From contig NC_057917.1 of assembly GCF_018873765.1 (NCBI RefSeq), positions 53,871,464-53,935,463 on the forward strand: DNA of 64,000 nucleotides. The letters are read 5' to 3'. Positions within the stretch are counted from its first letter, which is position 1. Every line of letters begins with the position of its first letter. The translations under genes and the position numbers were made by a program. This DNA is from Telopea speciosissima (Eukaryota > Streptophyta > Magnoliopsida > Proteales > Proteaceae). A model generated the notes under the pieces. That model searched no databases. It saw only the letters and a program-made list of their open reading frames with translations, and had not been told where the DNA came from. Shown here in pieces: positions 46,259 through 47,598 of this stretch.

Positions 46259-47598
46259 AAAAAGAAGGGGAAATTTACGAAACACCCCCTGAAAATGGGT
46301 CGAAACTCGGATGACCCCCTGAAATTTGAAAATACTCAGATCACCCGCTGGAATAGAGCCCAATACTCAGATTCAACCCTACCGTTATTTAAGTGATGAA
46401 GTCAGCTAGTTCAATTTTTTGAAAACCCTAAACTACCCTTTGGTTAATGTGAAGTTACTTTTTACCCTTGGATCTAAAAACCCCAATTTTTTTTAAGTTT
46501 ATAAGGATGAGGGGAATCAGAGGAGAATATTCCCTCTTCTTCCCCAAATCAACAGAAAGACAAATGAAACCCTTAGGGTTCTGCCTCAAGGAAACGCCGT
46601 GAATGGCCTGAAATAACTCGGCAATTTTGAGATGATACACTCAATCCTCACTTCTTAGAGTTCGTCCTTTAGAACTTGTTCAGAAGAGTTTTTGATGGGA
46701 TAAGAAGCTTCCATGGCTATGCCACACAGTCCCTCTTTGGCTGAGACGTCACGCTGCATTCTAATGTAACCTTGCTCTCCCCATTCAGCTCCCCATGAGT
46801 TCCTCACAATCCAGTACTTAATCCCATCAACAGTTGTTCCATACCCAACAATCGCCACCCCATGATCCAGCTCTGTTCTGCAAGGCCCAGTGAATACCCC
46901 CTGTGTTCATCATCAATCATCACATTTGCAGAGCTATTTCAGTTTCGAACCTTTTTAATTTTTATATTACATATTAATTAAATACTAATTTTGGATTGGT
47001 AGGAACTATATCACACTATTTAATTGAGAACGAAAACAAAATTCCAGATCCTCTGTTTTCTCTTTTTGTTTTAGATGGAGATAAATTATATACATACCTC
47101 TGAATAGAACTGGAATGCATTGCCGCTTGCTTCAATGGCAACTGATACAGGTTGGTTTGCAACGGCTTGCATCATGGGATTTGAAGTGGATTGGGGAAGC
47201 TGCAGTTCTTGCTTCTTGGGCTTTTGAAAAATATGAGATTTAGGGTTTTCTTGATGGATGATCCTCCGGCCATATACCGTTTCCGACTAAATCAAAACCC
47301 CAAAATTTTCCAATGGAAACCGCTCTCTTGATTTTTTTGTTTTTTTTCCTTCTCTCCGGCGAACTTACAGGTGTGAGGAAGAGGATGAAATTAGGCTGAA
47401 GATGAAGGAAAGGGTAATATTGTAAATTTAATTCTAATGATTTAGTACAAGGGTAAAATAGTCTTTTTACATCAATAACTAACAGCAGACTAACTCCGTT
47501 AGTGTAGAGGGGGTGATCTGAGTATTTTCAAATTTCAGGGGGTGATCCGAGTTTCGACCCATTTTCAGGGGGTGTTTCGTAAATTTCCCAAAAAGAAG
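46259..47598. mobile_element. Pack-MULE with 79-bp TIRs and 9-bp target duplication
   Basis: The element is 46268-47589 (1,322 bp). TIRs 46268-46346 and 47511-47589 start GGGAAATTTACGAAACACCC and differ at about one position in 79. AAAAAGAAG flanks it at 46259-46267 and 47590-47598. Long TIRs plus a 9-bp duplication are diagnostic of Mutator-like elements. It encodes no transposase; inside, on the minus strand, are two exons of a KDEL-tailed cysteine protease. The second B unit of the surrounding repeat retains the uninterrupted site (47811-47819), which confirms the boundaries. Nearly identical TIRs suggest a fairly recent insertion. Confidence 0.93.
46655..47175 (-). pseudogene. Captured C-terminal exons of a KDEL-tailed papain-like cysteine endopeptidase
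   Basis: Minus-strand exon 47175-47098 reads [20 protein letters not shown] then FQFYSE. Exon 46900-46655 reads [55 protein letters not shown] and ends KDEL. The 197-base intron (46901-47097) keeps GT-AG and phase 0, so capture was from DNA. The catalytic His (ELDHGV) and Asn (VRNSWG) are present, but the Cys half and propeptide are absent, so a product of about 107 aa could not be a protease. Upstream of the ATG the open frame continues into unrelated sequence of the element as far as a stop near 47290. KDEL-tailed cysteine endopeptidases act in programmed cell death. The fragment keeps an open frame and could be transcribed as a chimera or antisense RNA. Confidence 0.9.

Follow-up and report, generated by a model that had tools for sequence, protein, structure and literature searches.

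A probable Pack-MULE carrying a fragment of a KDEL-tailed cysteine endopeptidase gene, with its empty site preserved in a neighbouring repeat copy

Pack-TYPE elements are non-autonomous Class II elements with fragments of coding genes between their terminal inverted repeats (TIRs), and they are known in several superfamilies (accessible part of PMC8903248). The target-site duplications (TSDs) listed there are 8 nt for hAT, 5 nt for CACTA, TA for Mariner and mostly TTA/TAA for PIF elements. The majority of Mutator-like elements (MULEs) are distinguished by long TIRs, and a screen for multiple-TIR elements used a TIR of at least 50 bp and a TSD of 9–11 bp with at most two mismatches (PMC3310237, in the sections available). 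In rice, more than 1,000 genes have contributed fragments to over 3,000 Pack-MULEs, and for maize, effects of siRNA on the donor genes were described (excerpted text of PMC13317346). KDEL endopeptidases, the source of the cargo discussed below, form a group encoded by plants (PMC6303060, in excerpt).

Here, an element was delimited in a 64-kb window, the whole stretch of Telopea speciosissima DNA that was analysed. We read it, with a probability of about 0.87, as a non-autonomous Mutator-like Pack-MULE whose cargo, a piece of genomic DNA from a host gene for a KDEL-tailed cysteine endopeptidase, is probably a neutral passenger. All features are listed in Table 1.

Table 1. Coordinates of the element, its cargo and the surrounding local repeat (positions within the window).
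Feature	Position	Strand	Remarks
Element, whole	46268-47589		1,322 bp; inside local repeat copy A
Left TSD copy	46259-46267		AAAAAGAAG
Right TSD copy	47590-47598		AAAAAGAAG, exact 9-mer
Left TIR	46268-46349	+	79 bp (1 mismatch); 82 bp (2 mismatches) if extended
Right TIR	47508-47589	-	Two 29-bp tandem sub-repeats within
Left internal segment	46350-46654		305 bp, downstream of captured stop codon
Captured exon 2	46655-46900	-	His (LDHG), Asn (NSWG), C-terminal KDEL, stop
Captured intron	46901-47097	-	197 nt, GTATGT...ACAG, phase 0
Captured part of exon 1	47098-47199	-	Upper edge estimated from homology start
Right internal segment	47200-47507		About 308 bp, upstream of captured exon
Local repeat copy A, left part	45697-46267	+	Broken by element
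Local repeat copy A, right part	47590-47715	+	
Local repeat copy B, partial	47716-47941	+	Target intact at 47811-47819
Local repeat copy C	48012-48691	+	No element; 15-column gap at target's edge

Boundaries and class of the element

A sequence-only reading of this DNA had proposed a 1,322-bp element with 79-bp near-identical TIRs and a 9-bp duplication, and all three were confirmed. The TIR arms were identical at 78/79 positions (80/82 when extended), and a perfect 9-bp AAAAAGAAG was present on either side of the element. The 95% intervals of the TIR divergence were wide, 0.03–6.9% for one mismatch in 79 and 0.3–8.5% for two in 82. At both mismatches the left arm had G and the right arm C, with the arms read from the outer end. 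The 29-bp tandem sub-repeats, reported for the right arm, were 72% alike and may perhaps represent repeated transposase-binding sites.

The window was scanned for exact inverted 14-mers spanning 150–15,000 bp and flanked by exact duplications of 8–11 bp, a search that is blind to older elements with diverged ends. The element was the only case, and 40 dinucleotide shuffles yielded none. With terminal 10-mers, one case was found in the real window versus two summed over the 40 shuffles. No second copy of the ends was detected in the window when the element was compared with it by blastn, and the exact TIR strings had no match in viral and prokaryote contigs, in which one would not expect a plant element. 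Subterminal homology of the two sides past the 82-bp TIR was rejected, as its score was reached by 141 of 500 shuffles.

A TIR of 79 bp with a single mismatch exceeds the 50 bp of the MULE screen, the exact 9-bp TSD falls within 9–11 bp and agrees with the empty repeat copy B, and a fragment of a host coding gene lies between the TIRs, as in Pack-MULEs. No transposase was found inside the element at E values up to 1 (Pfam, six of the internal frames, mostly the longer ones, including the spliced 107-aa frame), and no MULE transposase was found among 20 proteins comprising 19 chosen frames of the window and the spliced fragment (Pfam). The MULE label is drawn from TIR length and TSD size alone, and with that label the element appears to be a genuine Pack-MULE whose empty site has been preserved. 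An origin in another TIR superfamily, such as hAT, or an unclassified TIR element would be compatible with the missing link to any transposase and with the occurrence of Pack-TYPE elements in several superfamilies (PMC8903248, accessible part). We consider this improbable, since with these TIR ends an exact TSD is possible at 9 bp but not at 8 or 10, the TSDs of hAT, CACTA, Mariner and PIF elements differ (PMC8903248, same part), and long TIRs are typical of most MULEs (PMC3310237, sections available).

Local repeat, empty site and surroundings

The sequence-only reading placed the uninterrupted target (47811-47819) in a repeat unit at 47716-47940. The target was found as described, but the repeat is larger and present in three copies, A, B and C. 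Copy B contained a single AAAAAGAAG at 47811-47819 and was without the entire 1,322 bp plus one 9-mer; copy A, after removal of the element and one 9-mer, aligned with copy B through the target. Copies A and B differed at 8/126 ungapped positions to the right of the insertion and shared 84.6% identity over 104 columns to its left, where copies A and C were 90.3% identical over 577 columns. Only copy B had an intact target. The 15-column gap of copy C was located at 48587-48588, on the edge of the target, and either a chance deletion or the scar of an imperfect excision could account for it.

Because copy B retains an intact empty site, the simplest and most likely order, judged from these alignments, is that the local repeat was duplicated first and the element inserted later. 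This is the order that had been claimed, and it is the intact target that supports it, the comparison of TIR divergence with that of the repeat copies being too imprecise to settle the matter on its own. A precise excision of the element from copy B is still conceivable. The empty site also bears on a simpler view of the locus, namely that an ordinary protease pseudogene lies by chance between inverted repeats. The fragment is indeed partial, but it is bracketed by TIRs and an exact TSD, and the absence from copy B of precisely the 1,322 bp and one 9-mer in the main refutes this view, while the retained intron disfavours a pseudogene of the processed type; we regard it as barely credible.

Several other features were observed in the window. 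Minus-strand frames at 44024-45408, near the repeat array, were similar to a transposase of the PIF/Harbinger type or to a gene of such descent. The frame at 44024-44581 matched DDE_Tnp_4 (Pfam, E = 7.2e-6), and the frame at 44905-45408, which had no Pfam match above the cut-off, presumably resembles a transposase of the same type. A copia-type LTR retrotransposon was located at 51297-56879 on the minus strand, with 194-bp terminal repeats (94% alike) and with an RVT_2 domain in one frame and a GAG-pre-integrase domain in another (Pfam). The window additionally encoded a ferredoxin-thioredoxin reductase variable chain domain (Pfam), which, together with the copia-type proteins and the KDEL endopeptidase, is in keeping with plant DNA. 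Local direct duplications at 6129-8059, 17686-18112 and 25881-26657 comprised three copies at 79–83% and two pairs, one at 94.5% and the other at 95.9%. Self-complementary, MITE- or foldback-like stretches of 149–187 bp were present at 37150-37298, 37990-38144 and 40511-40697, with 74–79% identity to their own reverse complement.

Captured protease fragment and its coding potential

The cargo had been described as two spliced-type exons of a KDEL-tailed cysteine endopeptidase, which was borne out by homology. The spliced fragment matched Peptidase_C1 (Pfam, E = 4.3e-33), but only at about positions 113–220 of the 220 in the profile. Its best solved relative was the cysteine endopeptidase 1S4V, which we take to be the castor bean KDEL enzyme (E = 8.9e-53, 79/98 aligned residues identical), followed by EP-B 2, presumably from barley (71/98), and triticain alpha (63/95). 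The His and Asn motifs (LDHG, NSWG) were found as claimed, and the fragment ended in LKDEL directly before the stop codon. The catalytic Cys had been reported missing, in agreement with the absence of any match to the N-terminal, Cys-bearing half in six internal frames (Pfam) or in a 144-aa frame. The fragment thus falls short of a whole C1 enzyme, which would have a signal peptide, a prodomain and the catalytic Cys, His and Asn, the signal peptide being judged by eye. When the fragment protein was compared with viral contigs, 13 pattern-matching stretches were found, seven of which were confirmed at 39–53% identity; these were taken as distant relatives.

The intron had GT-AG ends, lay between codons and had a GC content of 0.27, compared with 0.48 and 0.46 for the exons. 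Its retention, splice-site ends and low GC point to capture from genomic DNA. Inclusion of the frame upstream of the Met codon at 47175 raised the match to 1S4V from 180.2 to 186.7 bits, to EP-B 2 from 159.5 to 162.9 bits and to triticain from 137.9 to 140.6 bits. Protease homology therefore probably starts near 47199-47202, 8–9 residues upstream of that Met, although the exact start is an estimate because the gain was small (about 3–6 bits). The Met pair at 47175 is most likely internal to the captured exon. For this reason, a product started there would most likely be a truncated protease free of transposon or second-gene residues, and the roughly 107-aa chimeric product that had been suggested became a weak part of a partly supported Pack-MULE reading, in which the MULE-type ends, the TSD and the gene fragment within a repeat copy that most likely pre-dated the insertion all stood.

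The internal segments gave no Pfam match in the frames searched, which were 46455-46640 (minus) on the left and, lying mostly in the right segment, 47240-47527 (minus), 47262-47399 (plus) and 47172-47291 (minus). A plus-strand ORF within the element at 47313-47399, beginning METALLIFLFFFLLSGELT, was signal-peptide-like, and its enclosing frame had no Pfam match. It is possibly a second captured fragment or a chance ORF; as a fusion partner it was rejected, its strand being opposite to that of the protease frame.

Three ATGs, at 47562, 47472 and 47273, lie between the right end and 47175, and the ORF starting at 47273 (33 aa) overlaps the ATG at 47175 by four bases. The KDEL tail is an ER-retention signal that acts on ER-lumenal proteins. 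Since no signal peptide was evident by eye in the protease frame, the tail would be left without a lumenal protein to retain. At the 56 positions on which the three solved relatives agree, the fragment departed twice: in the 107-aa frame, residue 34 is Arg instead of Gly, and residue 75 is Gln instead of Glu. The Arg codon of residue 34 reads TGC-AGA in context, and a CpG to CpA transition, as in methylated DNA, could have produced it from TGC-GGA.

The captured frame was open, as had been claimed, and we asked of a neutral-drift simulation how often this would occur by chance (each value run 4,000 times, with 0.1 indels per substitution and four fifths of the indels frame-breaking). The simulated probability of an open frame was 0.81, 0.59 and 0.35 at 0.5%, 1.25% and 2.5% divergence per lineage, and fell to 0.13 at 5%, a value close to the upper limit of the interval for TIR divergence, and to 0.02 at 10%. 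Half of the TIR divergence amounts to about 0.6–1.2%, for which the simulation gives 0.59–0.81; under simulated neutral decay, an open frame without selection is therefore unsurprising at the divergence suggested by the TIRs. It would be less expected near the top of the interval or with a cargo that pre-dates the last insertion, and a cargo much older than its TIRs imply would call for an explanation of the open frame.

These results also bear on whether the cargo could be a functional new gene or regulator, either as an expressed truncated protease or through sense or antisense RNA controlling the donor KDEL endopeptidase. The open frame, the splice sites and the mere two deviations at 56 constant positions would fit such a role, as would the low probability of an open frame in an old cargo (0.13 at a per-lineage divergence of 5%, 0.02 at 10%), and there are reports of Pack-MULEs that are transcribed and of siRNA acting on donor genes (PMC8277862 and PMC13317346, in the parts available). 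Against it stand the high neutral probabilities at low divergence (0.81 at 0.5%, 0.59 at 1.25%), the lack of a prodomain or catalytic Cys in the scanned frames and of an evident signal peptide, the three upstream ATGs, and the Gly to Arg change at a position constant in three relatives. A function is accordingly quite unlikely in our view, and it is more doubtful still that TIR-driven RNA would tune the endopeptidase, and hence programmed cell death, in carriers of the insertion relative to non-carriers. From the sequence, no sign was seen that the captured piece does anything.

Proposed origin and comparison with known systems

We propose that a fragment of a host gene for a KDEL-tailed cysteine endopeptidase was copied into a MULE at the DNA level, since the intron was kept, and that gap repair or template switching may have been the route of capture. 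For its mobilisation the element would have depended in trans on a MULE transposase encoded elsewhere. It would then have inserted, at low divergence (TIRs 1/79 or 2/82), into a single unit of a local repeat older than the insertion. As the prodomain and the half with the catalytic Cys are missing and the fragment has no start of its own, the captured gene fragment is most likely a passenger in neutral decay. A transcript from the right TIR would be sense to the 3' end of the donor and one from the left TIR antisense, and either could feed siRNA. The element adds nothing new to the mechanism, being one more case of a well-known kind. Its value lies in a clean, base-resolved gene-fragment capture with the empty site alongside, which could be used in teaching or to mark MULE activity in this plant.

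The element resembles the Pack-MULEs of rice, maize, tomato and Arabidopsis in its long TIRs, its TSD of the 9–11-bp class and the absence of a detected transposase, and in having host-gene exons together with an intron inside (PMC3310237 and PMC8903248, accessible parts). It differs from other Pack-MULEs in its cargo, a KDEL-tailed papain-type endopeptidase, and was present in one copy in the window. A limited search of the main texts of open papers turned up no Pack-MULE with a papain-type protease, and the available text of PMC9189404 does not link MULE gene fragments with cysteine proteinase.

The protease of KI-MULE is ULP-type. Unlike KI-MULE and the ULP1-carrying MULEs, the element described here has a cargo of the papain family (C1), confined to the C-terminal part of the enzyme. 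It shares with them the combination of a MULE and a protease-family gene, as described for KI-MULE (PMC8277862, in excerpt) and as indicated for ULP1-carrying MULEs by a reference title in the accessible part of PMC13317346. Compared with the KDEL-tailed cysteine endopeptidases themselves (1S4V; AtCEP1-3), the fragment is C-terminal only, with no prodomain or catalytic Cys and no evident signal peptide, but it has the same His and Asn motifs and KDEL end and is identical to 1S4V at 79/98 residues.
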